This document shows positions 5,105 through 33,868 of a stretch of 34,844 bases of DNA, in pieces. The stretch is from Actinomycetota bacterium (GTDB lineage Bacteria; Actinomycetota; Actinomycetes; S36-B12): the NCBI GenBank assembly GCA_030652695.1, contig JAUSQD010000005.1, forward strand, positions 1 through 34,844, in the 5' to 3' direction. The position numbers and the translations under genes were made by a program. Numbering within the stretch: position 1 is the first letter of the stretch; each line of letters opens with the position of its first letter. Under the pieces are notes generated by a model that saw only the letters and a list, made by a program, of their open reading frames with translations, was not told the origin of the DNA and searched no databases.

Positions 5105-6091
5105 ATGTCCAGCAGTCTCGAGAATGCCTCGATCCTCATCACTGGGGGAACAGGCTCCTTCGGGCGTGCCTTCTTGGACACCGTGCTGAGCGAGCACTCA
5201 CCCCGCAGAGTCGTGATCTTCTCTCGTGACGAGCTGAAGCAGTACGAGATGCGCCAGATCTGGGGCGAGGACTCGCGCGTGCGCTTCTTCATCGGCGACA
5301 TCCGAGATCTTGAACGCCTCACCGTGGCTCTGCGTGGCGTGGACATCGTCATCCATGCAGCCGCGCTCAAGCAGGTCGACACAGCTGAATACAACCCGAT
5401 GGAATACGTCAAGACGAACATCCTTGGATCTGAAAATGTGATCCAGGCGTCCATGGCAGCCGGGGTGAAGAAAGTCGTGGCACTGTCCACCGACAAGGCC
5501 TCATCGCCTGTCAATCTCTACGGCGCCACCAAACTCACCGCCGACAAGCTCTTCATCTCCAGCAACCACTACGCCGCCGCATGGGGCACTGTCTGCTCGG
5601 TCGTCAGATACGGCAACGTGATGGGCAGCCGTGGCTCAGTCATCCCGCTGTTTCGCAGACTGGCCGCAGCGGGCATGCCCCTGCCAGTCACTGACACCCG
5701 GATGACCCGCTTTTGGATCACCCTTCCCCAGGCTGTGCAGTTCGTGCTCGACTGCCTGGACGATATGCAAGGCGGCGAGCTCTATGTGCCCCGCATTCCC
5801 AGCATGCATGTTGTGGACTTGGCAGAGGCCATCGCACCCGGCACCGATCTTGTCGAGGTCGGCATCAGGCCTGGTGAGAAATTGCACGAGGAGATGATCT
5901 CCACCGAGGACTCACGACGAACCCTGCTGCAGGACGGCCGCTACGTCGTGCTGCCGACCCTTGCCGGCTGGGGGTTCACAGCACCTGAAGGGCAGCCCGT
6001 TCCGGATGGATTCAGTTACACCTCGGAGTCCAATGACCTGTGGTTGAGTGCTGAGCAGCTGCGCGAACTCATCGGAGAACTCCACGACTGA
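5105..6091 (+). CDS. pseB: UDP-N-acetylglucosamine 4,6-dehydratase, PseB/FlaA1 type (SDR)
   Basis: ITGGTGSFGRAFLDTVL, VVIFSRDELKQYEM, RFFIGDIRD, VIHAAALKQVDTAEYNPMEYVKTNI, ALSTDKASSPVNLYGATKLTADKLF, IRPGEKLHEEMIS. GGGAG upstream of ATG. Confidence 0.9.
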   Translation: MSSSLENASILITGGTGSFGRAFLDTVLSEHSPRRVVIFSRDELKQYEMRQIWGEDSRVRFFIGDIRDLERLTVALRGVDIVIHAAALKQVDTAEYNPMEYVKTNILGSENVIQASMAAGVKKVVALSTDKASSPVNLYGATKLTADKLFISSNHYAAAWGTVCSVVRYGNVMGSRGSVIPLFRRLAAAGMPLPVTDTRMTRFWITLPQAVQFVLDCLDDMQGGELYVPRIPSMHVVDLAEAIAPGTDLVEVGIRPGEKLHEEMISTEDSRRTLLQDGRYVVLPTLAGWGFTAPEGQPVPDGFSYTSESNDLWLSAEQLRELIGELHD

Positions 6092-6101
6092 GGCGGCAGT
6101 T

Positions 6102-7346
6102 ATGGTGCATGGCATGCCCGGCATCCATAACCTCGTGAAGCAACGGGCCGTCTATGCCTGGCTGGCCTTTGCCATACCGCCCATTGCCATCTTCGGGCAC
6201 GCTCTATCCCCCGGCACGGTCGTCTTCAAGGCCCAGACTCTGGGAATCGTGCTGGCGTTGGCGCTGACCTTGGTCTGCGTGCTGCTGTGGCTGCCCTACA
6301 GGGCACAGGGACGACTTCCGCGGATCGTGGTCTGGACGATGCTCGCCATCATCGCTGCCTGGCTGATCCAGATTCTGCGGATACAAGCCGACGGCGCTTT
6401 GTTCAATGTCAGCACCTTCTGCCTCCCGGCATTGCTGATCCTGCTGTTGCTCAAACCACCGTCGCCAGCGGACATCCGCATTGCAGGCCTGGCCCTGTTC
6501 TATGCCGTGGCGATCATTGCGCTGATCAGCTTGCCATTGGGGATCTTCGGGGTCATGCCCAACGGCTTCGAAGGAGCCGACAACGGCGTGTGCCGGCTCG
6601 CAGCGCTGTGCGATCTCGTCAACAACCTGAATCGCTGGTCTGGGCCATTTGGCAGCGTCAACTATGCAGCACCCATGGGAGCCGCACTCATCGTGTACGG
6701 AGCTGTCCAGCGGCGTCATCATGCCTGGATTCTGGTCAGCACGGGTGTCCTCGTGATGGTGCTCAGCCAAGGTCGAACCGCCTTGTTCGCAGCAGTCGCA
6801 GGGCTCGCTGTGGTCGTGCTCTTCAGCCAGCGGGTGTCACAGTGGCCGAATCGGCGGGCCATTCGCGTCGGCAGCGTGCTTGGCCTGCTCTTCGCCGGGT
6901 TGATGTACATGCTGCTCTTTGACCCATCGTTGAACGGGCGAGTGGGCATCTGGGAAGACCTCCTGCGGCTGTGGCGGACCGAGCCGTGGACTGGCCTGGG
7001 AAGCTCAGGCATCACTGCAAACGTTGAACAGGCTCAAGGCGTGGGTATGGCCTTGCATGCCCACAGCGTTGTCTTGGATCAACTGATTCGCTGGGGCCCC
7101 GGTCAGGCCCTTTTGACGATTGCAATATTGGTGCTGATTGTGATCGCTGCAGCGCGCGCACTACCTACTGCGGGCCGCGGCCCGGTGGCTGTGGCGGTGA
7201 CTGTGGTCGTGGCCGGACTCGTGGAGACGATGCACGACTGGACCTACTGGTCGATCATCATGGCCATGCTGGTGTGGTCACTGGTGTCGTACATGCACGA
7301 TCGAGCGCCGACAGTAGAAGCGGAAGCTGTCAGCTCCTCAGTTTGA
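6102..7346 (+). CDS. O-antigen ligase / Wzy-like polytopic membrane protein
   Basis: Multiple TM segments; large loop with GPFGSVNYAAPMGAAL, VLSQGRTALFAA and MALHAHSVVLDQLIRWG, typical of O-antigen ligase family proteins. Confidence 0.75.
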   Translation: MVHGMPGIHNLVKQRAVYAWLAFAIPPIAIFGHALSPGTVVFKAQTLGIVLALALTLVCVLLWLPYRAQGRLPRIVVWTMLAIIAAWLIQILRIQADGALFNVSTFCLPALLILLLLKPPSPADIRIAGLALFYAVAIIALISLPLGIFGVMPNGFEGADNGVCRLAALCDLVNNLNRWSGPFGSVNYAAPMGAALIVYGAVQRRHHAWILVSTGVLVMVLSQGRTALFAAVAGLAVVVLFSQRVSQWPNRRAIRVGSVLGLLFAGLMYMLLFDPSLNGRVGIWEDLLRLWRTEPWTGLGSSGITANVEQAQGVGMALHAHSVVLDQLIRWGPGQALLTIAILVLIVIAAARALPTAGRGPVAVAVTVVVAGLVETMHDWTYWSIIMAMLVWSLVSYMHDRAPTVEAEAVSSSV

Positions 7347-8628
7347 ACAACGGCACAAGAGTTGCGCATTCCAGCCGAGACACCACATCACCATCAACCA
7401 GCGCGGTCTCAATCAAGTCCAAGGCTTGGGCATACACGCGTGCGACATGCGCGATGTCCTCGTCAGTGAATGCCGTGGTCACATCATGGGTGTTCAACAC
7501 CAGCACCCCGCGGCGCAGCACTTCCTGCATGAACAAGGTCTTGACCTCGTTCAGGGTGTTGGCGTCATCGATCGACCACTGCATGAACGTCCATGCCGGA
7601 TGGCCGCTGAACTGCAGAAACTCGTGCGACTGAGGTGAGCGCTCATGATCAATCGCCGCAACCAGGCGCTCGCCAATGTCAGCCATCTGCTTGGTCGGCT
7701 CGCCGGTGGCCATGCGCGCAAGCACCACGCTTGCGGCAGTCAGCGAGAGAGTCTCGCCGCCGTAGGTGCCGGAGAAGAAGATGTCCTCCATCAGCATCAT
7801 CAGCTCGCGCCGACCTGTCACGGCTGACAGTGGAAAGCCATTGGCGATGCCCTTGCCAAAGGCTGCGAGATCGGGGGTCACGCCGAAGTACTCCTGCGCC
7901 CCGCCTGGTGCGAAGCGGAATCCGGTGAGCATCTCGTCGAAGACGAGCACGATGCCATGGCGATGCGTCAGCTCGCGGATGCCCTCGAGGTAGCCAGGAT
8001 CGGGGAAGGTGGAGGTCATCGGCTCCATGATGAGTGCAGCGATCGCATCTGGATGGGCGGCGATCGTTCGCTCGACAGCGTCGAGGTTGTTGTACGGAAC
8101 GGCGTGGGTGAGTGCGCTCGTGGCCTGAGGGACTCCAAGGTTGCGGGTGGTGCTGCCGATGTACCAGTCCTGCCAGCCGTGATAGCCACAGGCAATGACA
8201 TGGTCGCGACCAGTAGCCGCACGAGCCAGGCGAATGGCAGCGGACGTGGCATCGGTGCCGTTCTTGGCAAAGCGCACCATCTCCGCACAGGGCACGATGT
8301 CGACCAGCTGCGATGCCACCTGCTCTTCAATGGGATGCGACAAGGACAGCGTGACGCCAGACTCCAGTTGACGCGTCACTGCCTCTGTGATCTCCGCATC
8401 GCCGTAGCCGAGCACCACTGCCCCAAGTGAGCTGACGAGGTCGACATATTCATGGCCATCGACATCCCAGGTATGACTACCGTGCGATCGCACAGCGAAA
8501 AGCGGAGCGGCCCCCACTGGATACTGCGTTCGCGATTTACTGAAGGTCTGTGCCCCAAGCGGGATCACCTGCTCTGCTCGTGCCAACTGCTCCAGGGATC
8601 GTGCGTATCGCTGTACGAGATCACGCAT
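7330..8628 (-). CDS. Class III PLP aminotransferase, glutamate-1-semialdehyde aminomutase-like
   Basis: NGTDATSAAIRLARAATGRDHVIACGYHGWQDWY, VFDEMLTGFRFAPGGAQEYFGVTPDLAAFGKGIANGFPLSAVTGR (PLP-lysine region). Start at MRDLVQRY, overlapping the upstream gene by 8 nt; 8646 is the longer alternative. Confidence 0.88.
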   Translation of the reverse strand: MRDLVQRYARSLEQLARAEQVIPLGAQTFSKSRTQYPVGAAPLFAVRSHGSHTWDVDGHEYVDLVSSLGAVVLGYGDAEITEAVTRQLESGVTLSLSHPIEEQVASQLVDIVPCAEMVRFAKNGTDATSAAIRLARAATGRDHVIACGYHGWQDWYIGSTTRNLGVPQATSALTHAVPYNNLDAVERTIAAHPDAIAALIMEPMTSTFPDPGYLEGIRELTHRHGIVLVFDEMLTGFRFAPGGAQEYFGVTPDLAAFGKGIANGFPLSAVTGRRELMMLMEDIFFSGTYGGETLSLTAASVVLARMATGEPTKQMADIGERLVAAIDHERSPQSHEFLQFSGHPAWTFMQWSIDDANTLNEVKTLFMQEVLRRGVLVLNTHDVTTAFTDEDIAHVARVYAQALDLIETALVDGDVVSRLECATLVPLFKLRS

Positions 8629-9379
8629 GCATCGCTCCAGTGTCAAGGCCGATCAGCGCCGCGTTGCGCACTTCGTCAGCGCTGGTACGCACGAGAGCAG
8701 GGCGCTCCTCGAGCAGTTGCAGGATTTGGTCCATGTCGAAGTGTGCATCCAAGGGATACAAGGCCGCGTAGACCTGTTCGACGAAGGCAAAGTCGTCTGG
8801 GGTGTCCACGGTCCAACGCAGATGGGAAAGATCAGTATCACCCACCACATTCACCAGCGAGAACTCCTTGGGTCTGCGATACACGCCAAGAGTGACATGT
8901 TCATGCTCTGCCGCATCTGAACTGCCTGCCGCCACCGCGAGCAGGGCTGCAGGACGCACCACCTCAACATCAAGTCCATCGGGAAAGGTCGCCTGCAGGG
9001 TGTTGGAGCAATAGTCCACGTCGGACTCAAGGAAGCGCTCGATCACCAGATCGATGACCGCGGGTGAAGTAAGCGGACAGTCTGCGGTGAGTCGCACAAC
9101 TGCGTCCGGTTGAAACTGCTCAATGGCCTTCGTGAACCGAGCAAGTACGTCGTCCAGAGGTCCGCGCACCACGGGGACACCCAAGGTTGCCGCGTATTCC
9201 ACGAGCACATCGTCAGCCGGATCTGTGGAAGTGGCAATGACAAGTGCATCGATGAGTTGGGCTCGACGGATCCTCTCGATCTGGCGACCGATCATCGGCT
9301 CACCCAGCAAAGGGCGCATCACCTTGCCAGGCAGGCGGGTTGAGGACATCCGCGCCTGGAGCACTGCAAGAGTTGACAC
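8621..9379 (-). CDS. SpsF-family cytidylyltransferase (NulO-type sugar activation candidate)
   Basis: VLQARMSSTRLPGKVMRPLLGEPMIGRQIERIRRA, VVRLTADCPLTSPAVID, LRWTVDTPDDFAFVEQVYAALYP. GTG start. Confidence 0.88.
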   Translation of the reverse strand: MSTLAVLQARMSSTRLPGKVMRPLLGEPMIGRQIERIRRAQLIDALVIATSTDPADDVLVEYAATLGVPVVRGPLDDVLARFTKAIEQFQPDAVVRLTADCPLTSPAVIDLVIERFLESDVDYCSNTLQATFPDGLDVEVVRPAALLAVAAGSSDAAEHEHVTLGVYRRPKEFSLVNVVGDTDLSHLRWTVDTPDDFAFVEQVYAALYPLDAHFDMDQILQLLEERPALVRTSADEVRNAALIGLDTGAMHA

Positions 9380-9398
9380 CCAATGATTCTGGCAGCAA

Positions 9399-10262
9399 TC
9401 ACCGATTCCAGCGACGAGGGTCGATGAGATCCGTGTCGTCGGAAGACAATTCGCCCCACTGCTGAGCGCCGGCGTCGACTTGCCAAGCCTGATCTATTTC
9501 CAAGAGCTCGGCGGCGCTGGTGACACCCACGACCACCTCATCCGCCCAGGGGATCTGCTGAATGAAGCCCAGGGCCGCTTGCAGTGGCGTCAGCCCGGCA
9601 CGGGCGCACCATCGATGAAAGCCCTGTACATGGGGATGCCGAGCCAAGGGAGAATCATGATCAGGCGCGAGCAGCAGCCCCTGCAAGAAGACGCTGCGCA
9701 CCTGGATTTGAGCTCCGGCAAAATGCAGGTCGGCGATGCGACTCCCGACCACAAGGCGTTGATCCAGCACGCTGATTGGCACCTGCACGACATCGAGCGA
9801 TGCAAAGTGCTGCTGCGCTCGCACCACGTCATCCTCGTCATAGGCCGAGATGCCAATGCGGCTGATCAAGCCTGCTTCCTTCAACGCGTGCAGTTCGTGC
9901 ACGGCCGCTGTGGCCTCCAACTCGTCTATCGCTGCCCAGTCATGGATGAGAACCGACGCAACTGAATCCAGGCCCAACTCCAGTAGCGAGGCCTCGAGTT
10001 GTGCGCGAATCGGCAGGTCAGCACTCGGGCCGGCGATCACCTTGGTCGTCACCGAGAATTCGCGCGCCCAGGGTTTGAGTCGAGTCTGCGCCGCTCCATA
10101 TCCCTGCGCCGGATTGCTGGTGCGGTGGGTGTCAACCGACCTGATGCCAAGGCCAAGTGCCGCTTCTGTAATCTCGCCGATGACCTGATCATCCAGAAAG
10201 CCCACGGCATTGGTCAGGCCATAGCCCGCACCCCACTGCGCCGTTCCCAGCGAGAGCCCCAT
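9399..10262 (-). CDS. Aldo/keto reductase family oxidoreductase
   Basis: LSLGTAQWGAGYGLTN, IRSVDTHRTSNPAQGYGAAQ, VTTKVIAGP, SVLIHDW, ISRIGISAYDEDDV, VVQVPISVLDQRL. Confidence 0.87.
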   Translation of the reverse strand: MGLSLGTAQWGAGYGLTNAVGFLDDQVIGEITEAALGLGIRSVDTHRTSNPAQGYGAAQTRLKPWAREFSVTTKVIAGPSADLPIRAQLEASLLELGLDSVASVLIHDWAAIDELEATAAVHELHALKEAGLISRIGISAYDEDDVVRAQQHFASLDVVQVPISVLDQRLVVGSRIADLHFAGAQIQVRSVFLQGLLLAPDHDSPLARHPHVQGFHRWCARAGLTPLQAALGFIQQIPWADEVVVGVTSAAELLEIDQAWQVDAGAQQWGELSSDDTDLIDPRRWNR

Positions 10263-10327
10263 TCCGGCACTCTAGGACGAAGTGGGATCTCCATCGCTCA
10301 TGGACTCACTCTCTACACTCGCTGACC
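10263..10327. promoter_or_regulatory. Divergent promoter pair between AKR (-) and RmlD-like SDR (+)
   Basis: Minus strand: TAGAGT (complement 10269-10274), 6 nt from ATG. Plus strand: TACACT (10314-10319), 8 nt from ATG. No Shine-Dalgarno space on either side. Confidence 0.55.
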
Positions 10328-11233
10328 ATGCAGACCTGGCTTGTCACGGGAGCTGGCGGCTTCCTTGGCCGAAATGCCGGCGCGTTTCTGCACAGTCGCA
10401 CTCAGGCCATCGGGCAGGTGCGCACGCCTGCGACTTCCGGCCTCTACAAGCAGCTCCTGCCCGTGGACTTGCGCGACACCGAAGCCATCGGAGCACTCAT
10501 CCGTTCAACCGCACCAGACGTAGTCCTACATGCCGCCGCCATCTCCGGACACGAGCAAGCCGACGCGGATCATGAGCAAGCTGAGGCGGTCAATATTCAC
10601 GCAACTGCCGAGATCGCCAGAGCCTGTGCTGACATGGGTACTCGACTTGTGTACATCTCAACTGATTCTGTCTTCAGCGGATCCACCGGCAATTACAGCG
10701 AGGAAGACCCACCAGAGCCCTTCTCCTGGTACGGCGAGTCCAAGCTGATTGGGGAAGACTTTGTGCGCGAACTCGTTGCGAATCATCTTGTCGTGCGCAC
10801 CAACTTCTTCGGATGGAGTGATACCGGCCGCAAGTCTGTGCTGGAGTTCTTCGTGCACTCACTTCGCGCGCAGCAGCATGTGCGCGGCTATCCAGATTTT
10901 GTGGTGACCTCGATCTATGCACAGCAGCTCATCGAGGCCATCTGGCGACTCACTGAACTTGGCGCAACAGGCACCTTCCACCTTGCATCCAGTGATGCCC
11001 GATCAAAGTACGAGTTCGGCATGTCTGTTGCCGAGCACTTCGGCCTGGACAGCAGCCTCATTGCTCGTGAAGGCCCACCAGCCGACGCGCACACAACCTC
11101 GCGTGCCCGCAATCTCTCGCTCAACACTGCAAAGGCTGCAGCGGTTCTCGGGTCCCCTCTGCCAACTCAGGCTGAGGGCATCCGGCAGTCAGTGTCTGAT
11201 GAGGCAGAACTGGCCCCACTCATCCGCGCTTGA
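10328..11233 (+). CDS. NAD(P)-dependent sugar epimerase/reductase, RmlD-like SDR
   Basis: WLVTGAGGFLGRNAGAFL, DVVLHAAAISGHEQAD, LVYISTDSVFSGSTGNYSEEDPPEPFSWYGESKLIGED (YxxxK). Confidence 0.87.
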   Translation: MQTWLVTGAGGFLGRNAGAFLHSRTQAIGQVRTPATSGLYKQLLPVDLRDTEAIGALIRSTAPDVVLHAAAISGHEQADADHEQAEAVNIHATAEIARACADMGTRLVYISTDSVFSGSTGNYSEEDPPEPFSWYGESKLIGEDFVRELVANHLVVRTNFFGWSDTGRKSVLEFFVHSLRAQQHVRGYPDFVVTSIYAQQLIEAIWRLTELGATGTFHLASSDARSKYEFGMSVAEHFGLDSSLIAREGPPADAHTTSRARNLSLNTAKAAAVLGSPLPTQAEGIRQSVSDEAELAPLIRA

Positions 11234-14929: not shown

Positions 14930-15700
14930 GTGAAGCGGTACGAGCAGGTCGTCAATGGGCTCGCCCGCAAGGTAGGCCTCCAGATCTCCCGAGTCGGCAA
15001 TGACTACAACCGCCTGCCCGTTGAGGCGACTGCTGACGACACCGCACTCATTGCTCAGGTCCGCCCGTACTCGATGACCAGTGCCGAGCGGCTGTGGAGC
15101 TTGATCAACGCCGTCCGGTACGTGACCGACAACGACATCGCGGGCGACTTCGTGGAATGCGGAGTCTGGCGCGGAGGCAGCGTCATGGCGATGGCCCTGG
15201 AGCTCAACAAGCTCAAGGTGAGCGATCGAAGATTCTGGCTCTACGACACCTTCGCCGGCATGACCACTCCCACTGCCGCCGACGTCGAGGAAGGTACGGG
15301 CGTGAGCGCGGCGGACATGCTGGCGTCAACGCCCGTTGAAGAAGGCAACAATGTGTGGTGCATCGCCAATCGCATGGATGTGGAAGCAAACCTGCGCATC
15401 ACCGGCTATCCGATGCAGCAGTTCACCCTGTGCGAGGGAGATGTGCGCGACACCCTGCACGATCAGACTCCTGACCAGATCGCACTGTTGCGCCTGGACA
15501 CCGATTGGTATGAGTCGACCAAACTCGGACTTGAAGTGCTCTATCCCAAGCTCGCCGTCGGAGGCGTCTGCATCCTTGATGACTACGGCCATTGGCAAGG
15601 TGCACGGACAGCAGTCGATGAGTACTTCGCAGAGCTAGGACATCGGCCGTTCATGCATCCAATCGACTACTCGGGTCGAGTCTTCATCAAGAGTCGCTGA
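14930..15700 (+). CDS. TylF/MycF-family O-methyltransferase
   Basis: GDFVECGVWRGGSVMAMA, FWLYDTFAGMTTPT, ALLRLDTDWYESTKLGLEVLYPKLAVGGVCILDDYGHWQGARTAVDEYF. Confidence 0.9.
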   Translation: MKRYEQVVNGLARKVGLQISRVGNDYNRLPVEATADDTALIAQVRPYSMTSAERLWSLINAVRYVTDNDIAGDFVECGVWRGGSVMAMALELNKLKVSDRRFWLYDTFAGMTTPTAADVEEGTGVSAADMLASTPVEEGNNVWCIANRMDVEANLRITGYPMQQFTLCEGDVRDTLHDQTPDQIALLRLDTDWYESTKLGLEVLYPKLAVGGVCILDDYGHWQGARTAVDEYFAELGHRPFMHPIDYSGRVFIKSR

Positions 15701-19462: not shown

Positions 19463-20773
19463 GTGCAGCCGGAATCGAATCACGCCGAAGGGCTGTTCGC
19501 GCACGCCTTGGCCGAGCGACTTTGGGACTTTCCCCGCAGCCTCACAGGTGATGGCGTGCGAGCAACCTTCGCAGTCCTGCAGGAGTTGCTGCCCGAGCTG
19601 GTGGTGCATGAAGTCCCCAGCGGAACCGAGGTGTTCGACTGGGTCGTGCCAGATGAGTGGAACATTCGCGAGGCCTACCTCATTGACCCCCATGGTCATC
19701 GGGTGATCGATTTCGCCTTCAGCAATCTGCATGTCGTGGGCTACTCAGACCCCGTTGACACGGTGCTGACTCTGGACGAACTGCAGCCTCACCTGCACTC
19801 TGACCCTGAGCATCCCGACGTCATTCCCTATGTCACCAACTACTACAACCCAGGCTGGGGCCTGTGCCTGCCGCACGCGCTTCGGCTGACGCTCGAGCCC
19901 GGTGACTACCGCGTCGTGATCGACAGCACCCTTGCTCCGGGCTCGCTCACCTACGGCGAGCTCCTCATTCCCGGTGACACTGAAGACGAAGTCTTCATCT
20001 CCACGTACATCTGCCATCCATCATTGGCAAACAACGAGCTCTCAGGTCCTGTGGTGTCCGTTGCCATTGCCCGATGGCTGATGGGGCTTGCGCGACGCCG
20101 ATACACCTACCGCCTGGTATTCGTGCCCGAGACCATCGGTGCCATCACCTATCTGGCACGCAATCTTGAGCATCTGAAGTCGGCAGTCGTGTCGGGCTAC
20201 AACCTCACCTGCATCGGCGATGAAGGCGACTACTCCTATTTGCAATCCCGGCGCGGTGGGCTGCCGATCGACCGCATTGCCCGACGGGCTGTGCTGGCCA
20301 CGCCACAGCCCAAGTTGTACTCATACCTTGATCGGGGCAGCGACGAACGCCAGTACGGAGCCCCCGGCGTGGATCTGCCGTTGATTTCGCTGATGCGAAC
20401 CAAATATGGCTCCTACCCGCAGTACCACTCCTCTGCCGATGACCTGTCCTTCGTCACCCCGGCTGGCCTGCAGGGCGGCATTGACCTGGTGCGCACCTGC
20501 ATCTCGGAGTTCGAGGAGTCGATCTACTACCGCACACCCGTGCTGGGCGAACCCCAGCTGGGCAAGCGAGGGCTCTACCACCAAATGCACGGCCGAACTG
20601 TTGAGGATGTCGTCCTGCTTCGCACCCATGTACTCGCCTATGCCGATGGTCAGCATTCTGTGACAGACATGGCCGAGCTTTTCGAGCGTCCACTCAGCGA
20701 TGTGCAGGCCGTTGTCGCAGAATTGCTCGAGCATGGCCTGCTCGAAGAAGTTCCGCCGATGAAGGGGCACTGA
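19463..20773 (+). CDS. DUF4910 aminopeptidase-like (M28-related) protein with C-terminal winged-helix-like segment
   Basis: DEVFISTYICHPSLANNELSGPVVSVAIARWL, YRLVFVPETIGAITYLARN, YHSSADDLSFVTP; C-terminal VTDMAELFERPLSDVQAVVAELLEHGLLEE. Confidence 0.8.
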   Translation: MQPESNHAEGLFAHALAERLWDFPRSLTGDGVRATFAVLQELLPELVVHEVPSGTEVFDWVVPDEWNIREAYLIDPHGHRVIDFAFSNLHVVGYSDPVDTVLTLDELQPHLHSDPEHPDVIPYVTNYYNPGWGLCLPHALRLTLEPGDYRVVIDSTLAPGSLTYGELLIPGDTEDEVFISTYICHPSLANNELSGPVVSVAIARWLMGLARRRYTYRLVFVPETIGAITYLARNLEHLKSAVVSGYNLTCIGDEGDYSYLQSRRGGLPIDRIARRAVLATPQPKLYSYLDRGSDERQYGAPGVDLPLISLMRTKYGSYPQYHSSADDLSFVTPAGLQGGIDLVRTCISEFEESIYYRTPVLGEPQLGKRGLYHQMHGRTVEDVVLLRTHVLAYADGQHSVTDMAELFERPLSDVQAVVAELLEHGLLEEVPPMKGH

Positions 20774-22619: not shown

Positions 22620-23642
22620 ATGAGCGAGCTCGTCGAGTCAGCCCTGCGGCTGCCCCGGCTTGCGCGCACGGTTCTTGCCGCTCGCAGCTTCAATCGCCAA
22701 GCGCAGACGCCGCAGACAACTGCCGGCCAGCAGCAGTTCAATATGCGCTCCTCGATGGATCTGCATCCCCGCATCGGCAAGCTGATCTCGCGCAGCGTCG
22801 TGCGAGGCACTCCGCCCGATGCCTGGCAAATCGCTGATCCGGACTCAAGTCGATTCTTTGACTCAGCCGAGGTTGAGCGGGCTGTCCAGAGCATCCGCCG
22901 AGACGGGTTCTTTGTGTTCAGTCACATTGTTCCGTCTGACATCACCACCGCTATCCGCGAGTACGCCGAGCAGGCACCTGCGATTGCGCGCGGCGCCGAC
23001 CAGCCCGCAGGCGTGTATCCCCGAACCCAGCCATTGGTTGGCAGATATGACATCGATGAGACGGTGGCACTGCAGTGTGTTGAGGTGCAGGAGTTTGTGA
23101 CTGACCCGGTGGCCGCGCTCATCTCGCAGCGCTACCTCAACCAGCCGGTGCTCATGGACGAGGTCGCCTTCTGGTGGACGACCACACAGGGCACGCAGGA
23201 CACCAACCTGAACGCTCAGATGTTCCATCAAGACCGTGATCGACTCGCGTTCCTGAAGTTCTTCCTGTACCTGACCGACGTCACTCCGGAAACCGGGCCG
23301 CATGTCTACCTTCGTGGCTCGCACCGGCATATCCCCCGCTCGCTTCGCGCCGATGGGCGCATCGACGATGCGTCAGTGCAGAAGGCAGGTTTGTGGGACG
23401 AGGTCACTGAGCTCACCGGGCCGGCCGGCACCTTGATGGCCGTGGACACCATTGGCCTGCACAAGGGTAAGACGCCGACCGGTGGAGATCGCCTGGCTTT
23501 GGAGAATGAGTTCTGCACCTCGCTCTTCGGCAACGACTTTGAGCGACCACATTTCCCAGCATCAGCGCTTACCCGCGACCGGTACGCCGCCATGCCGTGG
23601 GTTCTGCAGCGCTATGCGCAGTCAGCAGGAGAAGCGCCCTAG
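22620..23642 (+). CDS. Phytanoyl-CoA dioxygenase (PhyH) family Fe(II)/2-oxoglutarate oxygenase
   Basis: Internal MFHQDRDRLAFLKFFLYLTDVTPETGPHVYLRGSHR (HxD) and GLHKGKTPTGGDRLALENEF (distal His and Arg). GAGGAG ribosome-binding site. Confidence 0.85.
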   Translation: MSELVESALRLPRLARTVLAARSFNRQAQTPQTTAGQQQFNMRSSMDLHPRIGKLISRSVVRGTPPDAWQIADPDSSRFFDSAEVERAVQSIRRDGFFVFSHIVPSDITTAIREYAEQAPAIARGADQPAGVYPRTQPLVGRYDIDETVALQCVEVQEFVTDPVAALISQRYLNQPVLMDEVAFWWTTTQGTQDTNLNAQMFHQDRDRLAFLKFFLYLTDVTPETGPHVYLRGSHRHIPRSLRADGRIDDASVQKAGLWDEVTELTGPAGTLMAVDTIGLHKGKTPTGGDRLALENEFCTSLFGNDFERPHFPASALTRDRYAAMPWVLQRYAQSAGEAP

Positions 23643-32797: not shown

Positions 32798-33868
32798 GTG
32801 ACCACGTTCCAACTGGGCGACCGATTCATCGGTCCCGATCAACCGACCTACTTCATCGCCGATATTGCGGCGAACCACGATGGCGATCTGGATCGAGCAT
32901 TGGACTTGATGACTCTGGCACGCGATGCCGGCGCTGATTGCGCGAAGTTCCAGCACTTTCGCGCCGCACACATCGTGTCCGACTACGGCTTTCGCTCGCT
33001 GGGCGGACAGCAGTCCCATCAGTCCTCGTGGAAGAAGTCGGTGTTCGAGGTCTACGAGGACGCCGCAGTTTCATGGGACTGGACGCCAGTGCTGGCGGCC
33101 CACGCCCAGGAACTCGGCATTGAATTCATGTCGGCCCCCTATGACCTTGAAGCAGTGGCCCATCTCAATCCGTACGTTCGGGCATTCAAGGTGGGCTCAG
33201 GTGACATCAACTGGCTGGAGGAGCTGGAGGCTATTGCTGCACTGGGCAAGCCTGTGCTGATTGCCGCAGGAGCAGCCGACCTCGAAGACGTCCAGCGGGC
33301 AATGGAGCTGCTGCAGGCACTGGATGTGCCTGTGGTGCTGATGCAATGCAACACCAACTACACGGGCTCCATCGAGAACATCCAGTACGTGAATCTGCGC
33401 GTGCTTGCTCAGTTCGCTGAGATGTATCCACAGGTCACCTTGGGGCTTTCAGATCACACCCCTGGGCATGTCACGGTGCTGGGAGCTGTGAGCCTTGGCG
33501 CTCGCGCGATTGAGAAGCACTTCACCGACGACACCACTCGCACCGGTCCTGACCATGGATTCTCCCTGGATCCAAGCGGCTGGCGCGCGATGGTCGATGA
33601 CACCCGCATGCTGGAGGCTGCACTGGGCACCGGGTCCAAGCAAGTCGAGCCAAATGAGCAGGAAACCGTGGTGTTGCAACGGCGATGCGTTCGTGCGGCA
33701 CGCCCATTGCTGGCCGGAACCGATCTCGGCGAGAACGACATCGAAGTGCTTCGACCCGCACCGTTGGATGCCATCCCCGCACATGAATATCAGGCGGTGA
33801 TTGGTCGCACGCTCACCCGTGACCTTGAGTATGGACAGGAACTTCACTGGGCCGACCTGAAGTCGTGA
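32798..33868 (+). CDS. NeuB-family nonulosonate synthase (N-acetylneuraminate/pseudaminate/legionaminate synthase-like), divergent
   Basis: YFIADIAANHDGDLDRALDLMTLARDAGADCAKFQ, AFKVGSGDINWLEELEAIAALGKPVLIAAG, LGLSDHTPGHVTVLGAVSLGARAIEKHFTDDTTRTGPDHGFSLDP, C-terminal SAF-like RRCVRAARPLLAGTDLGENDIEVLRP. GGAGG 5 nt before GTG. Confidence 0.9.
   Translation: MTTFQLGDRFIGPDQPTYFIADIAANHDGDLDRALDLMTLARDAGADCAKFQHFRAAHIVSDYGFRSLGGQQSHQSSWKKSVFEVYEDAAVSWDWTPVLAAHAQELGIEFMSAPYDLEAVAHLNPYVRAFKVGSGDINWLEELEAIAALGKPVLIAAGAADLEDVQRAMELLQALDVPVVLMQCNTNYTGSIENIQYVNLRVLAQFAEMYPQVTLGLSDHTPGHVTVLGAVSLGARAIEKHFTDDTTRTGPDHGFSLDPSGWRAMVDDTRMLEAALGTGSKQVEPNEQETVVLQRRCVRAARPLLAGTDLGENDIEVLRPAPLDAIPAHEYQAVIGRTLTRDLEYGQELHWADLKS

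Follow-up and report, generated by a model that had tools for sequence, protein, structure and literature searches.

What sugar does a bacterium make from a locus that combines a pseudaminate-type dehydratase, a nonulosonate synthase and a cytidylyltransferase with an unfamiliar aminotransferase? This question is raised by a surface-glycan cluster on a 34,844-nucleotide stretch of DNA (hereafter the window) from a freshwater Actinomycetota bacterium of lineage S36-B12 (GCA_030652695.1, JAUSQD010000005.1). The window is an entire contig (C159) of a metagenome-assembled genome (MAG) of 2.16 Mb, which consists of 199 contigs and is 89.6% complete. It carries an operon encoding an aldo-keto reductase (AKR), an SpsF-type cytidylyltransferase and a class III, glutamate-1-semialdehyde-aminomutase-like pyridoxal phosphate (PLP) aminotransferase, here called AT3 for short. 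Our analysis indicates that the locus is a real, conserved variant of nonulosonic acid (NulO) biosynthesis. Its core is an uncharacterised cassette of wide distribution; a recent experiment allows the site of action to be predicted, and the product is likewise predicted. The most likely product is a sialic-acid-like sugar of an unusual kind, in which the three-gene cassette has probably exchanged a hydroxyl close to the tail for an amine. PseB and a reductase probably build the backbone, with no involvement of PseC.

The gene set and the missing pseudaminate enzymes

The set comprises six genes and one intergenic region:

5105..6091, plus strand: PseB, the inverting UDP-N-acetylglucosamine (UDP-GlcNAc) 4,6-dehydratase (TIGR03589, 473.6 bits, cut-off 407.75)
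7330..8628, minus strand: AT3 (PF00202, 172 bits); a TTG at 8646 opens the longest frame, the ATG at 8628 is the conserved start
8621..9379, minus strand: SpsF-type cytidylyltransferase, presumed CMP-nonulosonate synthetase (PF02348, 109 bits)
9399..10262, minus strand: AKR, first gene of the minus-strand operon (PF00248, 69 bits)
10263..10327: 65-base intergenic region between the divergent AKR and RmlD-like genes
10328..11233, plus strand: RmlD-fold short-chain dehydrogenase/reductase (SDR), proposed 4-reductase of the PseB product (RmlD, 163 bits, cut-off 224)
32798..33868, plus strand: NeuB-family nonulosonate synthase (PF03102, 221 bits; PF08666 (SAF), 38 bits)

The initial annotation had placed PseB and the operon, which runs from 10262 to 7330, at these coordinates; both stand, with PseB above its cut-off and each operon product matching its Pfam family, but the sixth conserved gene, that of the RmlD-fold reductase, had been overlooked. 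The remaining genes of the window encode glycosyltransferases, methyltransferases and an ABC transporter, and the whole is a surface-glycan cluster conserved across the family. The comparison covered ten related genomes, including G091, which is 99% complete; Candidatus Nanopelagicales are among the related loci matched by the AKR profile. The order of the six genes is kept in sister genomes, so their juxtaposition is not due to chance. G091 has the arrangement of the window, its NeuB gene lying some 27 kb from the rest. Across the lineage, PseB-RmlD-NeuB forms the conserved unit and is oriented divergently to AKR>SpsF>AT3; in the related genomes the frame of the RmlD-like gene shares 4 bases with that of PseB and at least 4 with that of NeuB.

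No PseC, PseG or PseH was recognised within the window, as had been stated initially; for PseH this applies to the window only, the search not having extended to GNAT proteins encoded elsewhere. The best genome-wide match to PseG reached 13.5 bits (E 0.05), and PseG is also missing from nine of the ten related genomes, G091 included. The window holds no DegT protein, and the only two strong ones in the genome score 250 and 200 bits against a PseC cut-off of 423.5; one is LegC/PseC-like and adjoins an initiating sugar transferase, the other is of the WecE/FdtB type. A genome-wide profile search found no NeuB besides that of the window, and SpsF is the single strong CTP_transf_3 (PF02348) protein of the genome; together with the missing PseG, this leaves no complete pseudaminate or legionaminate set with its own cytidylyltransferase elsewhere in the assembly. 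The NeuB protein scores 219.6 against the PseI model TIGR03586 (cut-off 340.25). In a tree of synthases, those of the lineage, of a phage contig (L198) and of Vibrio tubiashii (L127) form one clade (support 99), apart from 44 canonical-type synthases (support 100).

The RmlD-like protein is modelled by AlphaFold with a mean confidence (predicted local distance difference test, pLDDT) of 93, and its best PDB matches include dTDP-4-dehydrorhamnose reductases (RmlD) and human MAT2B. The SDR triad T112/Y135/K139 is invariant. The protein is thus predicted to have an RmlD fold with a T/Y/K triad, and a 4-keto nucleotide sugar is proposed as its substrate. Outside this lineage, in Bacteroidota and Betaproteobacteria, an RmlD-like gene with overlapping frames is placed between PseB and PseC (L140:1840, L158:7915, L163:7889, L194:6413).

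The AKR retains its catalytic tetrad (D44/Y55/K74/H107), which is invariant in 14 diverse relatives. The AKR copies of some related genomes show in-frame stops; the one copy examined has its stop where the match ends. AT3 adjoins SpsF in the related genomes and overlaps it there by 8 bases; translation from the ATG at 8628, probably its true start, gives the same overlap in the window. The PLP lysine of AT3, K265, is invariant, and its best NCBIfam model is PRK06209 (380 bits, under the cut-off of 486). The predicted structure (pLDDT 73, moderate) supports the fold of glutamate-1-semialdehyde aminomutase (GSAM) and no finer detail. The wide class III family around AT3 includes sugar 6'-aminotransferases and FumI, an enzyme acting on a CH3-CH(NH2)-CH(OH) group.

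The AKR-SpsF-AT3 cassette in bacteria and phages

A profile scan with the AKR, using one genome per species, yielded at least 571 confirmed relatives. We examined the best 80 loci, which span many phyla and in which the commonest gene order is PseB-PseC-AKR-SpsF-AT3-PseG-PseH-PseI. In 51 of these 80, at least 6 kb of sequence was available on either side; in this well-flanked subset PseB was present in 44, a PseC-type DegT protein in 47, NeuB in 40, SpsF in 38 and AT3 in 35. All 44 PseB-bearing loci also hold the PseC-type DegT protein. The AKR-SpsF-AT3 trio is therefore a cassette of nonulosonate clusters in many phyla, usually beside a complete pseudaminate set, and this position implies that it tailors the sugar and does not replace PseC; as PseC is usually present alongside AT3, AT3 cannot replace it in general. 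The initial reading of a non-canonical NulO pathway, with an AKR and a class III aminotransferase working alongside the CMP-transferase, is retained, whereas the idea that the trio is a local oddity, standing in for PseC, does not hold. What is peculiar to this locus is the loss of PseC, PseG and PseH and the joining of an RmlD-fold reductase to PseB and NeuB.

A clue to the action of the cassette comes from Acinetobacter prophages, in which EpaA, a fusion of CTP_transf_3 and Aldo_ket_red domains, and EpaB, an adh_short_C2 SDR, convert pseudaminic acid (Pse) to 8-epi-Pse, as seen by nuclear magnetic resonance of the capsule (PMC12053666). Among the 51 well-flanked loci, AT3 alone occurs in 33, an EpaB-type SDR alone in 10, both in two and neither in six (Fisher p=3e-5, a value merely indicative because the loci are related to one another). 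SpsF and AT3 form a single protein in eight of the best 80 loci, and also in L009/Pseudosulfitobacter, while SpsF and AKR are a single protein in Marinovum (L097) and Maritalea, the fusion being listed in L097 and L100; the architecture in Marinovum matches that of EpaA/EpaB exactly. Judged by these gene structures, the fusions appear to tie both AT3 and AKR to the CMP step. A 915-residue Maritalea fusion that seemed to include AT3 was rejected, as its C-terminal part is a BNR-like domain.

Vibrio tubiashii provides a further variant, a tight run PseB-SpsF-AKR-DegT-RmlD-NeuB (L127:8183-13958), in which a DegT-fold aminotransferase, well under the PseC and LegC cut-offs, occupies the class III slot and the other functions of the window's six genes are present. 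PseB-AKR-SpsF-AT3 sets were also found on five phage contigs of IMG/VR (L198:3173-9181, L199:3611-10011, L201:2608-9397, L202:769-4317 and L203:3487-9060). NeuB accompanies the set in two of them (L198 and L203), and terminase, portal or head genes were confirmed nearby in four. None of the five contigs, which may be fragments, carries a DegT protein. L199 also encodes a GNAT protein, and an MptE-like PF01973 protein, of the family of the Maf flagellin glycosyltransferases, adjoins its set. These phage sets suggest nonulosonate glycosylation of the virion. A search for EpaA relatives in named phages gave none.

Two other arrangements were observed. In Betaproteobacteria (L138, L168, L182, L194 and L195), a second, very divergent NeuB-like gene (tree branch 1.58) lies between AKR and SpsF, and several of these clusters also keep a normal synthase. 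On a Methylomagnum plasmid (L005:6217-12055), SpsF, a split transketolase, a class III aminotransferase, an SDR, a NeuB-like protein and a HAD phosphatase are encoded in a single run, which may specify a further unusual route to an ulosonic acid, with a transketolase product as its starting material.

Proposed pathway and competing explanations

We propose a variant CMP-NulO pathway, to which we assign a probability of about 0.5. PseB would convert UDP-GlcNAc to the 4-keto-6-deoxy sugar, and the RmlD-fold enzyme, as the likely 4-reductase, would reduce the 4-keto group, so that the amination by PseC is bypassed. After the loss of UDP, NeuB would condense the sugar with phosphoenolpyruvate (PEP) to a 5-acetamido-3,5,9-trideoxy NulO with a hydroxyl at C7. 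AKR-SpsF-AT3 would then act on the NulO or its CMP form: AKR would oxidise the C8 hydroxyl to a ketone, AT3 would transaminate it and SpsF would form the CMP-sugar, giving an 8-amino NulO within the surface polysaccharide. The 4-reduction, and hence the C7 hydroxyl, is proposed because PseC is missing and, in the related genomes, an RmlD-fold reductase lies between PseB and NeuB. The separate NeuB clade, the gene run of Vibrio tubiashii and the DegT-free phage sets speak in favour of this route. C8 is the predicted site because EpaA/EpaB, an SpsF-AKR protein with an SDR, acts there and because AT3 and the SDR replace each other; amination is the outcome expected from combining AKR with AT3.

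Several points weigh against this proposal. The MAG is incomplete, and in the related genome G081 the same cassette is adjoined by PseB-PseC-PseG. In several other phyla, the RmlD-like gene stands between PseB and PseC in PseC-bearing clusters, so it need not substitute for PseC. The partner labels of the AKR are interleaved on its weakly resolved tree. The C8 site depends on the analogy with EpaA/EpaB, with C4 as the alternative; our literature search found no biochemistry on any AT3-type cassette, and no UDP-sugar hydrolase for a PseC-less route was identified.

The best surviving competitor is a canonical or nearly canonical pseudaminate pathway that the cassette only decorates, with PseC, PseH and PseG encoded in the unassembled remainder of the genome. 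A completeness of 89.6%, the frequent company of PseC and PseG elsewhere and the arrangement in G081 speak for it. Nevertheless, we consider it unlikely, as PseG is lacking in nine of the ten related genomes, even in the nearly complete G091 with the same arrangement, the NeuB protein does not belong to the canonical PseI clade, RmlD, joined to PseB and NeuB, takes the usual place of PseC, and the phage sets do without DegT.

Somewhat further down ranks the idea that AT3 replaces PseC by aminating the UDP-sugar at C4, which becomes C7 of the NulO, with AKR performing another reduction. AT3 is indeed the only aminotransferase of the set in the window and the phages, and in Vibrio L127 a DegT protein fills its slot. 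It would, however, be redundant wherever both occur (PseC-type DegT in all 44 PseB-bearing well-flanked loci, AT3 in 35 of 51), and it is fused to or overlaps SpsF, the last step, rather than PseB; we therefore regard such a replacement as rather improbable.

Just behind it, and likewise doubtful, is a reading in which amination or reduction by the cassette takes place elsewhere, at C4 of the NulO, or the cassette supplies an N-acyl donor to the amine. Small ketones, too, are substrates of AKRs and class III transaminases, and Pse has only two hydroxyls open to oxidation or amination, at C4 and C8, so that C4 is the other free one. We know of no natural 4-amino NulO, while an 8-amino NulO has been described (PMC3210612) and the related SpsF-AKR and SDR pair acts at C8 (PMC12053666).

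Finally, that AT3 is the GSAM of heme synthesis, placed beside sugar genes by chance, is hardly credible and was rejected: although GSAMs are its closest solved relatives both by sequence and by fold, and the initial annotation had named this role as one to be considered, AT3 scores 256 bits against the hemL model (cut-off 527.3), a genuine hemL (552 bits) lies on contig C13, seven hemL proteins form one clade (support 100) separate from the sugar-cluster aminotransferases, and AT3 is found with AKR and SpsF in many phyla.

Extending the proposed C8 amination beyond this lineage is more tentative. It is possible, if short of an even chance, that AKR-SpsF-AT3 is a general NulO C8-amination cassette in many phyla and some phages, that many annotated pseudaminate clusters make 8-amino NulOs, and that Nanopelagicales and phages use a PseC-free backbone (PseB and NeuB, with an RmlD-type reductase in the bacteria) leading to a 7-hydroxy-8-amino NulO. 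Surface nonulosonates govern recognition by phages, immune lectins and flagellin glycosylation systems, and the prediction of NulO products relies on gene lists without this cassette. If C8 amination is true, genes would be at hand for a sugar known only chemically, the predicted products of many so-called pseudaminate clusters would need correction, and a positive charge would be added to a normally anionic sugar. The locus itself points to a PseC- and PseG-free pathway and to phages with such sets among their virion genes. The same family-conserved glycan cluster of the window also encodes a DUF4910/DUF2172 peptidase-like protein (19463-20773), a PhyH dioxygenase (22620-23642) and a TylF-type methyltransferase (14930-15700).

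Comparison with known systems

EpaA/EpaB is the closest experimental counterpart, as both systems join a PF00248 AKR to a CTP_transf_3 protein and add a second enzyme acting on a nonulosonate. In the window, the two proteins are separate and encoded by adjacent genes of one operon, no adh_short_C2 SDR of the EpaB type is present there, and AT3 stands instead, whereas the partner EpaB is such an SDR and the outcome is C8 epimerisation; the SDR form of the cassette in other loci shares the EpaA/EpaB architecture. The pseudaminate cluster of Vibrio B9-25K2 similarly contains an SpsF-AKR fusion in a PseB/C/G/H cluster without NeuA (PMC7371886); unlike in our locus, a dehydrogenase follows the fusion, and that paper does not mention a class III aminotransferase. 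Sinorhizobium rkp-3, considered as a possible locus of a GSAM-like enzyme, was not borne out as a parallel, since the published description of RkpLMNOQ is that of ordinary Pse enzymes (PMC7591256).

With the canonical PseBCHGIF pathway, the locus shares a PseB above cut-off, a NeuB-family synthase and a cytidylyltransferase; it differs in lacking PseC, PseH and PseG, in a NeuB outside the PseI clade, in SpsF taking the place of PseF and in its RmlD-fold reductase. An 8-amino-3,5,7,8,9-pentadeoxy NulO is known from the O-polysaccharide of Flexibacter maritimus (PMC3210612), although no genes for 8-amino nonulosonates were assigned in the literature searched. The genome paper on Tenacibaculum maritimum, the known producer of an 8-amino NulO, contained none of the O-antigen or nonulosonate terms looked for. 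The flagellin NulO of Shewanella oneidensis (274 Da, C11H18N2O6) is compatible with both Pse5Ac and a 7-hydroxy-8-amino NulO; it was not used as evidence, since the papers on it leave the presence of the cassette unstated.

Regarding the backbone, Fusobacterium nucleatum 25586 contains trideoxy fusaminic acid and 2-acetamido-2,6-dideoxy-L-altrose, as cited in PMC5595891. A 3,5,9-trideoxy nonulosonate that has no amine at C7 thus exists in nature, as does the corresponding hexose. The likeness is one of sugars; there is no indication of an AKR-AT3 cassette in that organism, whose biosynthetic genes were not compared. As for the chemistry at C8, Kdo8N synthesis in Shewanella by KdnB/KdnA proceeds by oxidation and then transamination at C8 of an ulosonic acid. 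The Kdo8N sugar itself is reported in PMC3210612. That system relies on other enzyme folds and an eight-carbon sugar, but follows the same logic of oxidising and then transaminating C8 that we propose for the AKR-SpsF-AT3 cassette.

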